Origin: a virus
IMG/VR virus record: IMGVR_UViG_3300013104_000713
Location: 1 to 29,083 of that record
Direction: 5' to 3' (one strand)
DNA length: 29,083 nucleotides
Both the position numbers and the translations under genes were made by a program. Shown piece by piece: positions 7,955 to 17,138 of this stretch (its first letter is position 1; the number at the start of each line of letters is the position of its first letter). The notes under the pieces are model-generated. The model was not told where the DNA came from. It saw only the letters and a list, made by a program, of their open reading frames with translations, and ran no database searches.

Positions 7955-9403
7955 ATGCCTAGGAACATCGAGGAACTTGAGACTCACATCGGTGAGCTGC
8001 GTTCCCGCATCACCGGCCTGGATGAGCAGTACAAAGACCAGGCTCTGCCGGAGGAGGCCCAGAACGAATGGGACAACCTCGAAGAGGAACGGGAGGAGTC
8101 CGAGCGCCTGCTCGGCGAGCTGCGATTCCGCAAAGAGCGGGTCGAGGCCCTTGCCGGCAATGAGGAGAACCGCGAGGAGGTCCGGAGTGCCTTCCAGACC
8201 CGCCGTCCCGGTGCGGTGACTGGTGAGGACATCTACGACCTCTCGACGATTCGCGGCAGCGCTGCGAACCCGCAGGAGATGGTCCGTGAGCTGCGTGATC
8301 GCGGCAAACGGGAGATCGAGCGGATGACTCCGGCCCATTCAGAGGCCAACCGCGAGGCTACCCAGACCCACCTGGAGCAGCTCCAGGAGAAGCTGGACGG
8401 CAACGACGGTACTTTCTCGCGCCACATGTTGGTGACGGGTAAACCCTCGTACCGGCAGGCTTTCCTGCGGGGTATCACGGGTCAGCAGATGAATGATGCC
8501 GAGCAGGTGGCAATGCGGTCGCTGAACCTCGGCGAAGGCGCGACGGGTGGCTTGTTGCTTCCGTACACGCTCGACCCGACCATCATCCCGACGTCCAGTG
8601 GGGTTGTGAATCCGCTGCGCGCGATCGCTCGCGTGGAGCAGACCAGCACGAACACCTGGAAGGGTGCGACGTCTGGTGGCATGACGGCGAAATTCCGTGA
8701 AGCCGAAGGCGAAGAAACCACGGATGACTCGCCGAAATTCGCCCAGCCGGAAGTTAGCTGCCACGCTGCGGATGCGTTCGCGGAGTGGAGCTACGAGTTC
8801 GGGCAGGATTACGGCTCGATCGCTCCAGAACTGGCGTCGCTCGTCACGGATGCCAAGGACGAACTCGAGGCGACGAAGTACCTGTCGGGCTCGGGCGAAA
8901 AAGAGCCGTTCGGTCTGGCCACTGGTGCTACCGAACTCATCGAAACTGCGGCGTCGGTTACGTTCGCGGTGGGTGACGTGTATGGGACGGAACAGGCTCT
9001 CCCGCCACGATTCCGGACTCGCGCGGCATGGGTCGGCAATCGGGCCATCTACAACAAGATCCGCCAGTTCGACACGGCCGGCGGCGCTTCGATGTGGGTG
9101 CGGCTCCCCGATGGGCTCTCCAATGTGCCCAACGGGAACCTGAACCAGCGGCTGCTCGACTACCCGACCAACGAGCTGTCGACGATGGAATCGGCGGTGA
9201 CGAAACTGAAAACGATCCTGTTCTTCGGTGACTTCCGCTACTTCCTGATCGCTGACCGCATCGGGATGGTCGCTAAACCGATCCCGGATGTCCCTGGGCC
9301 GGAAGGCAAACCGTCGGGTCAGTCAGGGCTGTACTTCTTCTGGCGGACGGGCTCGAAGGTGCTCTCGAAAGCTGCCTTCAGGGGCCTCAAGGTCAAAGAA
9401 TAG
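7955..9403 (+). CDS. Major capsid protein, HK97 fold, 482 aa
   Basis: The main shell protein. Residues 1 to about 70 are a charged coiled coil (IEELETHIGELRSRI...), the delta/scaffold domain normally removed by the prohead protease encoded just upstream. The fold proper starts around GITGQQMNDAEQVAMRSLN and GATGGLLLPYTLDPTII, followed by NPLRAIARVEQTSTNTW, EWSYEFGQDYGSIAPELAS (spine helix region), KYLSGSGEKEPFGLAT (loop around the fold), and C-terminal FGDFRYFLIADRIGMVAKPI and LSKAAFRGLKV, all hallmark segments of HK97-like capsids. A GGAGTGAGG site precedes the ATG. A strong terminator follows, consistent with a highly expressed gene. Confidence 0.95.
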   Translation: MPRNIEELETHIGELRSRITGLDEQYKDQALPEEAQNEWDNLEEEREESERLLGELRFRKERVEALAGNEENREEVRSAFQTRRPGAVTGEDIYDLSTIRGSAANPQEMVRELRDRGKREIERMTPAHSEANREATQTHLEQLQEKLDGNDGTFSRHMLVTGKPSYRQAFLRGITGQQMNDAEQVAMRSLNLGEGATGGLLLPYTLDPTIIPTSSGVVNPLRAIARVEQTSTNTWKGATSGGMTAKFREAEGEETTDDSPKFAQPEVSCHAADAFAEWSYEFGQDYGSIAPELASLVTDAKDELEATKYLSGSGEKEPFGLATGATELIETAASVTFAVGDVYGTEQALPPRFRTRAAWVGNRAIYNKIRQFDTAGGASMWVRLPDGLSNVPNGNLNQRLLDYPTNELSTMESAVTKLKTILFFGDFRYFLIADRIGMVAKPIPDVPGPEGKPSGQSGLYFFWRTGSKVLSKAAFRGLKVKE

Positions 9404-11639: not shown

Positions 11640-11866
11640 GCTACCGAGTGACGAGCGGCCACGTGGAGACTCTCCACGATGGCGGCATGGTTGGCCCTGG
11701 AGACACGCTCTCCGACGCCGACGCGAAGAAGAACCCCAGGCTTCTCGAGCGCGGGGTGCTAGTGAAGGAGGCCGACAAGCGCAAGCCCAAGGCCGAGAAA
11801 TCAGAGCACGGCTCCGATGCCGCGCCCGAGCCTGCTGAGCAGGAGAAGACGGAGGAGTCCAAGTGA
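11636..11866 (+). CDS. Small protein with charged tail, upstream of sheath, 76 aa
   Basis: A short beta domain (YRVTSGHVETLHDGGMVGPGDTLSDADAKK) precedes LLERGVLVKEADKRKPKAE and a Glu/Lys/Ser tail. The pattern of small domain plus charged tail is the same architecture as the protein encoded just after the capsid gene. Proteins like this commonly sit directly before sheath genes in actinobacterial prophages, but their job is unknown to me. ATGA and GTGA overlaps bind it to both neighbours in a single operon. Confidence 0.6.
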   Translation: MSYRVTSGHVETLHDGGMVGPGDTLSDADAKKNPRLLERGVLVKEADKRKPKAEKSEHGSDAAPEPAEQEKTEESK

Positions 11867-13296
11867 CGCTGCCCGGAATATTTCCGACGATCGGTGAAAG
11901 CCTGCCGACCCAGTCGCTGCCAAGTAGCACCGGGACCGCCTTCGTGGTGGGAACGGCTGAAAGGGGCCCGGTTGGCATACCGATCCCGCTCCTCTCGATG
12001 GCTCAGTACTTGAGCAAGTGCGGCGGTCGCGTCTCCTACAGCCCGCTCTACGACACGCTTGATGTGGCGTTCGACCGCGGCCTGAATCAGGCGTATTTTG
12101 TTCGGCGCGTGGGGCCTGCGGCGGTCACCGCTAATAAAGACCTGGTGGACGGGACGTCGGCCAACACGCTCGAAGTCAACGCCACCTCCCCCGGTGAATG
12201 GGGCAACAGCGTCGTGGTGGAAGTCGTTGCCGGTGCCATCGAAGGCACCTTCAAGCTCCGGGTCTTCGATGGGGAAGTCCTCAAGGAGTCCTCTACCGAC
12301 CTTGCGGACAACGCGGCAGCGGTCGCATGGGCCGCCGCCTATTCCTCGCTGATCACCCTCAAAGACCTCGGCAAAGCGGATCCCAAAGTCCAAAAAGTGA
12401 CGCTGGCCAGCGGGGCTGATGACCGGGCGAATGTGGATGCGGAAGTCATCGCGGAAGGACTCGCCCTGCTCCCACCGGATCTCGGCCCAGGTCAAGTCGC
12501 GGTCCCGGGTAACACCGCTGAAGACGTGCAGCTCGCGGTCATTGCTCACTGCGATGAGACCGAGCGGACCCCCTTCCTTGATGCCGAAGACACGGGCGAA
12601 TTCTCCGACATCGTCGCCGCGGCGATCGCGCTTCGCTCTGCGGAGGGCGCCCGCCAAGGGGCGATCTTCGACCCTTGGGACATCGCAAAGAATCCGCTTG
12701 TGCCGGGGACGACTCGGACGGTGCCGCCTGTCGGGCGCCAGCTCGGTGCGGTCGCAGCTGTCGATGCTCAGACGGGTAATGCGAGCGAACCGGCAGCCGG
12801 CGACAACGGGAAGGCCCGGTCCGGTGGGCTTGTCATCGGCCTCGCCCGTACTCGCTCCAACGAAGAACGGGAGGCGCTCAACGATGCTGGGGTCAACGTC
12901 TCGATCATGGACGAAGGAGTCCCGACCACATATGGCTGGCGGACCCTTGCGGACCCGGTTGCTGATCGTCGCTGGCTGCCACTGAACGTGGCTCGTGTGA
13001 TGACGTCGATCGCCTACGAAGCCAAGGCGGTGCTCAAGCGCTACATGTTCAAGCGCACCGACGCACAGGGCAAACGGCGAGGAGAAGCAGAGGGCGCGAT
13101 CCGCAATGGCGTGCTGAAGCCCCTCTACACCGGCGAAGCCCTGTTCGGCGCTACCGAGCCCGAAGCATTCAGCGTTGCGGTTACTCAGGAGACGAATCCG
13201 ACCGATGGCTCGATCGCGAAGCTCGAAGCCAGCATCGGCGCAGCTCCGGTCGAGTTCGCCGAGCAAATCCCACTCACGGTCATAGCGACCAACTAA
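11863..13296 (+). CDS. Contractile tail sheath protein, 477 aa
   Basis: The presence of this gene defines the tail as contractile. The N-terminus (LPGIFPTIGESLPTQSLPSSTGTAFVVGTAERGPVG) is the classic sheath start: a strand followed by a VVGTAERGP turn. It continues YLSKCGGRVSYSPLYDTLDVAF and ANTLEVNATSPGEWGNSVVVEV. The C-terminal half has ARQGAIFDPW, NDAGVNVSIMDEGVPTTYGWRTLADP, WLPLNVARVMTSIAYEAKAVLKRYMF and a final beta domain ending FAEQIPLTVIA, all conserved sheath segments. GTG start with a GGAGGAG site and GTGA overlap. A long antisense frame here is a shadow. Confidence 0.95.
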   Translation: MTLPGIFPTIGESLPTQSLPSSTGTAFVVGTAERGPVGIPIPLLSMAQYLSKCGGRVSYSPLYDTLDVAFDRGLNQAYFVRRVGPAAVTANKDLVDGTSANTLEVNATSPGEWGNSVVVEVVAGAIEGTFKLRVFDGEVLKESSTDLADNAAAVAWAAAYSSLITLKDLGKADPKVQKVTLASGADDRANVDAEVIAEGLALLPPDLGPGQVAVPGNTAEDVQLAVIAHCDETERTPFLDAEDTGEFSDIVAAAIALRSAEGARQGAIFDPWDIAKNPLVPGTTRTVPPVGRQLGAVAAVDAQTGNASEPAAGDNGKARSGGLVIGLARTRSNEEREALNDAGVNVSIMDEGVPTTYGWRTLADPVADRRWLPLNVARVMTSIAYEAKAVLKRYMFKRTDAQGKRRGEAEGAIRNGVLKPLYTGEALFGATEPEAFSVAVTQETNPTDGSIAKLEASIGAAPVEFAEQIPLTVIATN

Positions 13297-13306
13297 GGAG
13301 AACGAG

Positions 13307-13732
13307 ATGACGCAGGAAACGCAGCGACAGGACCAGGCGAATGTCTCGCTCACGGTGGGCGATCGGCCACTTCCGTTTCTCTTCCAAAAGAAATCTGGCG
13401 GCAAAATCGGCTCAGAGGGGTCGAAGACCGCACCAGGGGCGATGCAGCCAAAGGTCGCCCACGGTGGCATCGTCGACATCGAAAACGGGACGTTCGAATT
13501 CGAGTTCGTGCCCGCTCGCGATAACGAGACCCTTCAGTGGTTGAAGCAGCAGGTCGGCAAGAGACGGACCAACGGCACTGAGCACATCCTCGATGTCGAT
13601 GGCAATGTCTGGGGAACGCTGAACAACTTCACCGGCGTTCTCTCCAGCCTTGACACTGGCCAGTACGACGCGACGTCAAGTGATCCGCGCATGGGTGCGT
13701 TGGAGCTTGAACTCGATGGGAATCCGAGCTGA
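13307..13732 (+). CDS. Tail tube protein, 141 aa
   Basis: The gene follows the sheath with a good AAGGAGA site. The protein is all-beta: ANVSLTVGDRPLPFLFQKKSGGK, HGGIVDIENGTFEFEFVPARD, a helix TLQWLKQQVGKR, then HILDVDGNVWGTLNNFTGVLSSLDTG and a closing strand GALELELDGNP. Size and strand pattern fit tube proteins of contractile tails, and order sheath-tube-chaperone-tape measure is conserved. The stop overlaps the chaperone start (TGATG). Confidence 0.82.
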   Translation: MTQETQRQDQANVSLTVGDRPLPFLFQKKSGGKIGSEGSKTAPGAMQPKVAHGGIVDIENGTFEFEFVPARDNETLQWLKQQVGKRRTNGTEHILDVDGNVWGTLNNFTGVLSSLDTGQYDATSSDPRMGALELELDGNPS

Positions 13733-14298
13733 TGGCCGAGGCTGAGCAGGTGACAAGTCCAGGAAAAGCCGAGATCTCCCCGCTCGATGGTGGCCTTGCC
13801 GCTGTTGCAAAGCGGCATGAGGAATTGGAGAAGCAGAACACGCTGACGCTCTTCATTCCAGGCTATGAGGGTCTGATGAAGGTGCGCTATCACCTACTCC
13901 CTGCGGCGCAGATGGATCGCATTGCCGAGCAGCGCCGAGACATGAAAGGCACCGGGATTTCGGGTGAGTGGGAACTGGAGGCGCAGACGCTCGTCGACCT
14001 GTGTGACGCAGTGCTGCTCCGCGACCCGGAGACCGATGAGTACATCGAGCTCTGCGATGACAATGGGCCAATCCGCTTTGAAACGCGGTTTGCTGATGTC
14101 CTCGGCCGAGCCGGAGTCAAGGTGAGCGGTGCACGAGCTCGAGAGATCGTGCTCGACTTCTTTTCTCCGCGCACCAAGGTTGACGATCCATCGAGTCCGC
14201 GTCGCTTCCCCAATGCAATGGATCGCCATGTAACGGCAATCCTCGCCTGGTATCGAGGTGAGCGCGACAGGATTGATCGCACCCTACTGGGGGAATAG
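13732..14298 (+). CDS. Tail assembly chaperone, short form (G-like), 188 aa
   Basis: Located directly between tube and tape measure, the standard place of the chaperone that coats the tape measure during tail assembly. The protein has an acidic N-terminus, a beta-containing core (TLTLFIPGYEGLMKVRYHLLPAAQ), helices with VDLCDAVLLRDPETDEY, and an RDFF/VLDFFSPRTK-type segment, then a C-terminal helix AILAWYRGERDRIDR. It ends at TAG after CTG GGG GAA. Five consecutive G at 14289-14293 lie at the only place where the next reading frame can be entered, implying a second, frameshifted product. Confidence 0.8.
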   Translation: MAEAEQVTSPGKAEISPLDGGLAAVAKRHEELEKQNTLTLFIPGYEGLMKVRYHLLPAAQMDRIAEQRRDMKGTGISGEWELEAQTLVDLCDAVLLRDPETDEYIELCDDNGPIRFETRFADVLGRAGVKVSGARAREIVLDFFSPRTKVDDPSSPRRFPNAMDRHVTAILAWYRGERDRIDRTLLGE

Positions 14299-14495
14299 AA
14301 CGGGCGCCGGCGATCCAGGAAGCCGGACGCCTAGACGCCCTCGGCATCGACGGGGGTCGATTCCTGGTCTGTGGCCCAGCGGAGCGGATCGCCATGCAGG
14401 CGCGCTCCAAGGTGGTTGAGGAGTGGCGTGAGACCGAACGCCACAACCTCGCCATAGAAATCATCCAAGAGTTCGGCCAGGCCCTTGAAGGCTAG
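14277..14495 (+). CDS. Frameshift extension of tail assembly chaperone (T-like part)
   Basis: In the -1 frame relative to the chaperone, the sequence is open from 14277 to TAG 14493-14495 and has no good start codon; its only ATG (14394) would give 33 residues without a ribosome-binding site. It overlaps the upstream frame for only 22 bases, which contain the G5 run. Slippage of one base back on GGG yields GIERAPAIQEAGRLDALGID... joined to the chaperone, a product of about 254 residues. The C-terminus (VVEEWRETERHNLAIEI) is a helix, as in GT proteins. This matches the conserved tail-gene frameshift described for many dsDNA phages. Confidence 0.78.
   Translation, partial: SHPTGGIERAPAIQEAGRLDALGIDGGRFLVCGPAERIAMQARSKVVEEWRETERHNLAIEIIQEFGQALEG
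14287..14295 (+). other. Probable -1 ribosomal frameshift (slippery) site
   Basis: The codons CTG GGG GAA contain five G (14289-14293). The P-site tRNA on GGG (14290-14292) can re-pair perfectly on GGG one base back (14289-14291); the A-site codon then becomes GGA instead of GAA, so the site is not a perfect X XXY YYZ heptamer. The in-frame TAG directly after the A-site codon may help by slowing the ribosome. Confidence 0.65.
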
Positions 14496-14510: not shown

Positions 14511-17138
14511 ATGGCTGGTCCTTCCAGCAGCATCGACGTGTTCCTGCGCCTCCACGGGCAGCGCAAGTTTGCCAAGGAAGTAGCCGCATCTGGGGCGGAG
14601 CTTGAGGCAATGGGGCTGAAGGGCGCCAAAGCGGTGGCCAGCTTTGCCAATTCTGGCGAGAAGCTGAAGAGGTTCGGCAAATCCTGGACCCACAACGTCT
14701 CGATGCCCATCGCAGCGCTCGGCGTCGTCAGCGGCAAGATGGCGATGGACTTCGATCGGTCGATGTCGCTCATTGCCACGCAGGCCGGTGGCTCGGCGCG
14801 CGAAGTGAAAGGCCTAGAAAAGGCTGTGCTGGGGATGCACAACCAGTTCACTCCGAACGAACGAGCCCAGGGCCTCTTCTACATCGAGTCCGCCGGTCTC
14901 CGCGGCGCCAAAGCAATGGAAATGCTCCAGGCGAACGTAAAGCTCGCCACGACCGGCAACTCCAACCTCGAACACACCGTCTTTGGGACCGTCGGCGCCA
15001 TGAATGCCCTCGGAAAAGAAGGCAAAAATTTCACCAAGATCGCGGCCATTATGAACTCCACGGTCGGACACGGCCATATGCGGATGGAAGAATTGGTTGG
15101 GGCGATCTCTACCGGCTTGGTGGGGGCCGCGAAATCCTTCGGGGTCAGTTGGGGCGGGATGAGCTCGGCGGTCGCCTTCTTCACTCGCATGGGCGAACCG
15201 GCCCAGCAGGTAGCCACGCGTCTGCGGCAGACCATCACGCACCTGGCCACCAATGCCAGCACCAAAGGTGCCGAAGCCCTCGATTCGATCGGCATGTCGA
15301 CGGAGAAGATGGGCCAAAGGATCCGGAAAAGCGGGCGCATCGGGCCGGTCATCAAAGAACTTGCTGAACATCTCAAAGCGGTCTCGAAAACCAAGGCCGA
15401 TCAGGTACTCACCGATGCTTTCGGGGGCGGGCGATTCGGAACTCAGATTCGAGAGGCCACGCAGCGCTGGCAGCTTCTGCTTCGTACCGAAAAAGAAGTC
15501 GCGAAGTTCGGGACGGCGAAAGAACTCAACCGGGCTAATGCGATCGCCGAGAAGCAGTCCGCAGTGAAATTGAAAGAAACGTGGGGCGATCTGAGCGCCG
15601 TTCTCATCAATCTCGGCAACGTGGTATTGCCCGTTGCGGTACCGGCCCTTGAAAAACTCACTGGGGTCGTCAGTGGAGCAGGACATGCCTTCGGTGCGAT
15701 GTCACCTGAGGTGCAAGCCGGGATAGGCGGGTTCTTGCTGCTCACCGGACCAATCGCTCATGGACTTGGCTATTTCGCTGGCGGTGTTGGGCGAGCATTG
15801 ATTCTGACCAAAAAACTGATGGTCGCTGGCCAAGATTTCGGGGCGTTCGCGTGGGCGCTGAAAAGCGGCGGCCAGAGCATGAAAGGGGCGGCTTCCTATG
15901 CCTTCCGAGGTTCGGGTATAGCCGGGGCACTCCAGACCGCCAAAGGCTTCGCACTCTCCCTGGGGCCGGCAGTAGCTGCCTATGGCGTTGGAAACATCGT
16001 CACCTCTGCCTTGAGCGGAGACTGGGGCGATGCAGGGCTTGAGGCCGGAGGAGCCTTCGTCGGCGGCCTCGCGGGCTATCTGGGCGGCGGACCACTAGTC
16101 GGGATGCTTGGAATGGGTGCCGGCTCGTTGGCGGGCGAATTGCTCTCGGGGCTGTTCGGATCGGAAACCAAGGTTCTCTCAGCCCAAGAAAGGGCAGCGC
16201 AAAGCGCAAAGCGAGTGAAAGCGGCGCTTGAGGGGGAGCACCACGCATCGAGCGCACTCGCGAAATCAGGTGCGGCCCTTGTCTCGGCACATCACCGCCA
16301 GAAGGCCGCATCCCAAGAAGTGCGCCATGCCGAAAGGGCCCTGAGCACGATTCGGGCGGAATTCGGTCCCAACTCCGAGCAGGCGATCCGGGCGGAAGTC
16401 CACCTGGCGAAAGCCGGCGAACGCCGTTTTGCCATCACCCGCAAACTGCACCGCCAGGAAAAACTGCATGGAGAAGCCCAAGGTATCTTCAAGCAGGAGA
16501 ACGCCAACGCTGTCCTGCAAGAGCGTTCGCGGATCAAGCTGCTGAAAGGCCAGGTCGAAGAATCACGTGAGCGTCGTCGAAAGCTCATGTCTGAAGGTGT
16601 CACCGGCAGGCGTCTGATTCAGGCCGATGAAGCCCTCACGCAGCGAACTTCTGCCCTTCGCAAAGAACGTAGCGCCCTCTATAAATCGTGGGCCGAAGCC
16701 AACAAGAAGATCGGCCCTGAATGGGCGAACTTCGTCCGGCATGCAAATGCCAAGGCACTCGAACTAGGAAAGGGCCTCAAAGCGGTTCGTGAAGAAGCGG
16801 AAGGTCTTCGCAAAACCCTCCACAAGCTCCGTGAAAGCTCGAGCACCGACCTTGGGCCGTTCAAGCGTGGGGTAATAGAAGAAGCCACTGAATCAGCACT
16901 TGGCCGGAACCGGCGAGAAGAACGCGAATTGCGTCCGCATCACCACGGGCGCCATGCCGCGCCGCCCCGCCGATCGCCTAGACGGCGCGATCTGGTACTC
17001 ACCACACCCCTGGGATCCTCCCTTTCGGCCGCGAGCGCTGGCGGCGACATCGTGATCCCACTCACCGCGATCCTCGATGGAGATGTGGTTGCACAGAAGG
17101 TAACGCGCCGGGCGCAGAAGGCAGCTAACCGACAATAG
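14511..17138 (+). CDS. Tail tape measure protein, TP901-like, 875 aa
   Basis: The tape measure sets tail length and is injected with the DNA. The N-terminal quarter matches TP901-type tape measures: a helical start, MAMDFDRSMSLIATQAGGSAREV, then MHNQFTPNERAQGLFYIESAGLRG, NALGKEGKNFTKIAAIMNSTVGHGHMRMEELVGAI, and MGEPAQQVATRLRQTITHLA. Two hydrophobic Gly/Ala-rich regions lie near residues 400-440 and 505-550, as expected for membrane insertion. Residues 556-780 are charged coiled coil. The final 90 residues include HHHGRHAAPPRRSPRRR, a basic low-complexity segment. Using 0.15 nm per residue (known ruler rule), tail length would be about 130 nm. GGAGGTGG precedes the ATG. Confidence 0.92.
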   Translation: MAGPSSSIDVFLRLHGQRKFAKEVAASGAELEAMGLKGAKAVASFANSGEKLKRFGKSWTHNVSMPIAALGVVSGKMAMDFDRSMSLIATQAGGSAREVKGLEKAVLGMHNQFTPNERAQGLFYIESAGLRGAKAMEMLQANVKLATTGNSNLEHTVFGTVGAMNALGKEGKNFTKIAAIMNSTVGHGHMRMEELVGAISTGLVGAAKSFGVSWGGMSSAVAFFTRMGEPAQQVATRLRQTITHLATNASTKGAEALDSIGMSTEKMGQRIRKSGRIGPVIKELAEHLKAVSKTKADQVLTDAFGGGRFGTQIREATQRWQLLLRTEKEVAKFGTAKELNRANAIAEKQSAVKLKETWGDLSAVLINLGNVVLPVAVPALEKLTGVVSGAGHAFGAMSPEVQAGIGGFLLLTGPIAHGLGYFAGGVGRALILTKKLMVAGQDFGAFAWALKSGGQSMKGAASYAFRGSGIAGALQTAKGFALSLGPAVAAYGVGNIVTSALSGDWGDAGLEAGGAFVGGLAGYLGGGPLVGMLGMGAGSLAGELLSGLFGSETKVLSAQERAAQSAKRVKAALEGEHHASSALAKSGAALVSAHHRQKAASQEVRHAERALSTIRAEFGPNSEQAIRAEVHLAKAGERRFAITRKLHRQEKLHGEAQGIFKQENANAVLQERSRIKLLKGQVEESRERRRKLMSEGVTGRRLIQADEALTQRTSALRKERSALYKSWAEANKKIGPEWANFVRHANAKALELGKGLKAVREEAEGLRKTLHKLRESSSTDLGPFKRGVIEEATESALGRNRREERELRPHHHGRHAAPPRRSPRRRDLVLTTPLGSSLSAASAGGDIVIPLTAILDGDVVAQKVTRRAQKAANRQ

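Follow-up and report, generated by a model that had tools for sequence, protein, structure and literature searches.

Does the gene that separates the tail tube gene from the tape measure gene in this uncultured soil phage encode one protein or two and, if two, how is the second reading frame reached? The preliminary description had proposed a programmed −1 frameshift in a tail assembly chaperone at an unusual run of five G. We analysed the window (the whole 29,083-nucleotide stretch of viral DNA) together with related viral contigs. Comparison of the sequences indicates that the gene very probably encodes the tail chaperone of a sheathed phage, in which a −1 slip on G_GGG_GAA would yield forms of 188 and 254 amino acids. 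The case is real, well supported and ordinary.

Reading frames and gene neighbourhood

The gene order on the plus strand is sheath, tube, chaperone, tape measure. The tail sheath gene (11863–13296) matches PHROG 23 tail sheath (E 5.8e-30), the tail tube gene (13307–13732) matches PHROG 5102 tail tube protein (E 9.3e-07) and the tape measure gene (14511–17138) matches both PHROG 1533 (E 4e-32) and PF10145 (E 5.2e-20). The chaperone gene lies directly between the tube and tape measure genes, which is the position expected of a G/GT-type chaperone pair in tailed phages. An open reading frame of 612 codons (11641–13479, minus strand) runs antisense to the tail sheath gene and probably just reflects the G+C-rich codon usage.

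Frame 0 of the chaperone spans 13732–14298 (188 codons) and ends in CTA CTG GGG GAA TAG. The G run (14289–14293) is part of the heptamer GGGGGAA at 14289–14295, which lies in the G_GGG_GAA phase within the overlap of the two frames, and the frame-0 stop codon TAG (14296–14298) follows directly on its 3′ side. The −1 frame has a stop at 14274–14276, is open from 14277 and terminates at 14493–14495; it overlaps frame 0 by 22 nt. The extension that it would add (T-like, mostly helical) is placed at 14292–14495. The frames and coordinates of the preliminary description (−1 frame open from 14277, 22-base overlap) were reproduced on recomputation. Its gain of 67 residues is correct for a slip in the P site, in which 67 residues are read in the new frame; the predicted fusion has 254 residues whether the slip is tandem or confined to the P site.

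That the −1 frame is open carries little weight in itself, since at least 66 open codons follow 1261 of 5091 (25%) −1-frame positions in 15 open reading frames of the window, the chaperone included. The heptamer GGGGGAA occurs four times in the window against 6.8 expected, and is therefore not over-represented; two of the four lie in the G_GGG_GAA phase of their assigned reading frame. The heptamer alone is thus not rare here; the real evidence for the frameshift is conservation.

The assignment as a chaperone was made from position, frames and slip site, and the short (G-like) form of 188 residues is further annotated on its conservation and predicted fold. The protein matched no Pfam, PHROG or NCBIfam model and, by tblastn, none of 50,697 phage records. 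The searches thus linked it by sequence to no described family of chaperones; because such chaperones diverge widely, this similarity is a usual feature and not a strictly defining one. An AlphaFold model of the short form has a mean pLDDT of 84.4. When 400 PDB chains were aligned to this model, the only one with a VIA-align Z of at least 2 was 2ob9, the HK97 tail assembly chaperone (modest Z of 4.5, 101 residues, rmsd 4.4), for which the Foldseek E value of 2.3 is not significant. The best viral Foldseek match of the short form is an uncharacterised phage protein (1.3e-5). The extension is modelled as helices (pLDDT 86.5), and a fold search with the extension alone returned nothing significant.

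Conservation of the slip site and the extension

Scans of viral contigs with the chaperone, sheath, tape measure and extension as queries gave three close relatives, L002, L003 and L004, with sheath identities to the window of 79, 79 and 67%, respectively. Three more contigs (L005–L007) were matched in these scans by the tape measure gene only. The chaperone is conserved in all three close relatives and is 55% identical to that of the window in L002 and L003. The contig of L004 ends upstream of the slip site, so that the site comparison comprises the window, L002 and L003.

Across these three sequences CTGGGGGAATAG is identical at 12 of 12 bases, and the heptamer with its adjacent TAG is unchanged in all of them; the G run, which the preliminary description had proposed to follow in relatives, is thus kept in both relatives that reach the site. 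The three chaperones use the same codon at 19 of the 66 columns with a common residue other than Met or Trp. With the last three columns excluded, codon identity in all three is 1/9 for Leu, 0/6 for Gly and 5/6 for Glu, and yet the closing Leu, Gly and Glu codons do not differ between the sequences. The slip site thus stays constant where synonymous codons otherwise vary.

The protein encoded by the extension is likewise conserved, with 60% identity to L002 (tblastn E 4.8e-24) and 42% to L003 (E 5.9e-11). Beyond the chaperone stop all three sequences retain an open, conserved −1 frame, whereas frame 0 is interrupted by stops in each of them and the +1 frame in two, the window and L002. The third-codon-position excess of the extension is supportive but uneven, with p values of 0.008, 0.17 and 0.015 in the three pairwise comparisons.

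More distant searches were also made. The chaperone had no match in the genome contigs scanned, where the sheath found 44 distant loci. Neither chaperone nor tube matched in 396 genomes of G001's phylum, a weak negative result because the control genomes gave no match either. A DNA-pattern scan for CTNCTGGGGGAATAG reported at least 119 stretches; 121 sites were parsed (window and relatives included, known duplicate loci removed), and no further tail chaperone was recognized by eye in the best 30 by open −1 length. Four of these 30 sites (L089, L103, L149 and L155) lie on G+C-rich contigs (68–74%) and are similar to one another; in each, an upstream frame of 124–147 codons ends in LLGE and a stop at CTNCTGGGGGAATAG and is followed by a long open −1 frame.

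A separate observation concerns the tape measure gene of L002. This gene starts with ATG at 9101 and its frame 0 is over after 23 codons, with the conserved protein going on in the −1 frame. The break carries GTT TTT TTA, a canonical U_UUU_UUA at codons 10–12, and its T run (L002:9129–9135) is the sole run of at least six T in the 13.4 kb locus. A tandem slip would restore SIDVFL-RLHGQRKF, which matches SIDVFLRLHG of the window tape measure across the junction. To make the L002 product, either ribosomes would have to shift by −1 or the transcript would have to gain a U through polymerase slippage; a homopolymer sequencing error is the plain alternative. That two neighbouring tail genes are recoded in this lineage, the chaperone at G_GGG_GAA_UAG (3/3) and the L002 tape measure at U_UUU_UUA, is a doubtful proposition. 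The lead is more interesting than the chaperone site, but may be a homopolymer error. The gap between extension and tape measure is about 450 bases in L002, compared with 15 in the window and 7 in L003. This segment (L002:8621–9058) contains an open reading frame with helix–turn–helix domains (Pfam HTH_38 and HTH_28, just below cut-offs) and looks like an insertion.

Mode of the shift and rival explanations

The frames, their conservation and the absence of a common start were computed here; the occurrence and rate of the shift, the tRNAs that slip and the role in tail assembly are inferred. The majority of ribosomes would end at TAG and release a 188-residue G-like protein, and a fraction would move one base back on G_GGG_GAA to make a 254-residue G-T-like protein, in which the −1 frame would contribute a C-terminal domain modelled as helical. 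The heptamer does not conform to the canonical X_XXY_YYZ pattern with Watson–Crick re-pairing at the first two bases of the second codon. Most likely, the slip is tandem with a G:U middle pair: tRNA-Gly would re-pair fully on GGG and tRNA-Glu on GGA, giving the junction LLGEIER. Slip of the P-site tRNA-Gly alone would give LLGGIER. No significant structure was found downstream of the site (z −0.5, −0.8 and −1.5) and no Shine–Dalgarno-like upstream site at a fixed distance; there is no consistent helper signal.

The preliminary description had counted the step from GAA to GGA as an A-site mismatch and had called the site unusual. Neither point holds. What was taken for a mismatch is G:U pairing at the middle position of the codon, and the PRFect paper states G:U re-pairing for the GGGGGAA motif (PMC10885494). 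Among the slip motifs annotated in the tail chaperones of actinophages, G_GGG_GAA is one of the common ones; the same paper, where it treats annotated actinophage (SEA-PHAGES) tail chaperones, gives about a thousand GGGGGAA sites (PMC10885494). With the false label removed, the site is an instance of a motif that is common in actinophages and explained by G:U re-pairing.

The same product might instead come from a P-site slip of tRNA-Gly or tRNA-Glu that is aided by slow termination at TAG, which we consider rather unlikely but far from negligible. TAG adjoins the heptamer in three of three sequences, and tRNA-Glu could re-pair on GGA through a G:U middle pair during the wait at TAG. However, Bxb1, phi16 and CL31 use the heptamer with the stop further off, so an adjacent stop is not required for this type of site. 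The pause at termination that the preliminary description had suggested may still play a part, but a special pause is not needed, because in phi16, CL31 and four sheathed Gordonia phages a single sense codon separates slip site and stop. Stops near the slip site are common in general; in Burkholderia phage KL1 the slip site is described as lying immediately 5′ of the stop (PMC3483164).

It is very improbable that the second frame is an independent gene that is expressed by termination and re-initiation. The chaperone stop does overlap a −1-frame ATA in the window, L002 and L003, and L002 has a single upstream −1-frame ATG, at a distance of 51 nt from the frame-0 end, for which no ribosome-binding site was seen by eye in the printed sequence; nothing else speaks for a separate gene. 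Against this, the −1 frame of the window and of L003 contains no ATG, GTG or TTG upstream of the stop, and the first such codons past it are about 96 and 147 nt away, respectively, beyond the most conserved block, RLDALG-DGG. Strict conservation of the G run would also be unneeded. With the exception of the L002 ATG, the second frame therefore has no start of its own, overlaps the end of the first and has a conserved slip site in the overlap. An independent second gene with its own start, which the preliminary description had named as grounds for abandoning the frameshift, was not found, as no start codon is common to the relatives. Since CTGGGGGAATAG and the extension are both kept while no start is shared, the evidence supports the −1 frameshift at the G run that had been proposed.

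A fusion could also be read from the same conserved G run if RNA polymerase were to add one G there, so that some mRNA encoded both parts in one frame, but we judge such transcriptional slippage to be extremely improbable: five G form a short run for polymerase slippage, and the conservation of GAA would be unexplained, although Glu codons seldom vary here (5/6 identical). Assembly error, by which a base lost or gained would split one ordinary gene, might be suspected of a single metagenomic contig with a break at a homopolymer, but deserves almost no credence as it is contradicted by exactly the same break in two independent contigs (L002 and L003).

Comparison with known tail chaperones

The tandem slip on G_GGG_GAA can be set beside several described systems. 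GGGGGAA, a 'fivetwo' site, was confirmed in the same codon phase in the tail chaperone sequences of Bxb1, phi16 and CL31; the Bxb1 gene is recorded with 'ribosomal slippage', and the phi16 paper proposes GGGGGAA as the slip site of the tail assembly genes (PMC5506516). The motif was absent from the scanned stretches of Che8 and TM4, and is thus common and not universal. Bxb1, phi16 and CL31 share with the window the heptamer, its phase and the placing of the gene, with the major tail or tube gene on one side and the tape measure gene on the other. They differ in being siphophages, whereas the window phage has a sheath gene, and in having the stop further from the heptamer, with zero codons between in the window.

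Sheath matches were at about 27–32% identity among the best 30 of 91 records, and 90 of the 91 bear the names of Arthrobacter, Gordonia, Brevibacterium or Streptomyces phages; the label 'actinophage' is used here provisionally, because of these sheath matches. For 12 of the 91 records the last ten chaperone codons were read, and GGGGGAA was found in none of these 12 sheathed actinophages. In this stretch four Gordonia phages have CCT TTG, Cantare has CCT TTA and seven Arthrobacter phages have CCT with other codons. The finding applies to these 12 phages, a set outside cluster C of the mycobacteriophages, to which the sheathed phage Bxz1 belongs. ErnieJ, a sheathed cluster C mycobacteriophage, is described with a frameshifted chaperone (PMC5122674).

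Joined chaperones are annotated at the same gene position in the sheathed Gordonia phages GMA6, Schomber, DalanDe and UBSmoodge. These are like the window in their sheath, gene order, length of the −1 extension (frames of 66–77 aa) and a stop near the slip, but unlike it in their site, C_CCT_TTG, and have a weak protein profile similarity to it. Profile comparison with the 12 sheathed-actinophage chaperones gave a weak, collinear match (E 0.0005, probability 32%), and that of the extensions an E value of 0.005 (probability 7%). The seven sheathed Arthrobacter phages (L188, L189, L190, L192, L193, L012 and L016) keep a −1 extension of the chaperone. The entry to it is GAC CCT NNN, which allows at most a C_CCT slip of one tRNA. 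No joined chaperone is given in these records, and several annotate a short hypothetical gene there.

The predicted fold of the short form may resemble that of the HK97 chaperone (2ob9), but the family searches detected no sequence similarity to the HK97 or lambda G/GT chaperones. The lambda slip heptamer is GGGAAAG and differs from the GGGGGAA found here. By analogy with lambda, the G part would act by binding the tape measure protein, and recruitment of the tube protein would fall to the T part. Lambda makes two products from one start through a −1 shift (PMC5009743).

The novelty is minor: a known site occurs in a sheathed lineage where the 12 inspected phages lack it, which is a small extension of what has been described. 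An uncultured sheathed lineage thereby joins those with a probable frameshifted tail chaperone, and the GGGGGAA site is seen in a phage that carries a sheath gene.
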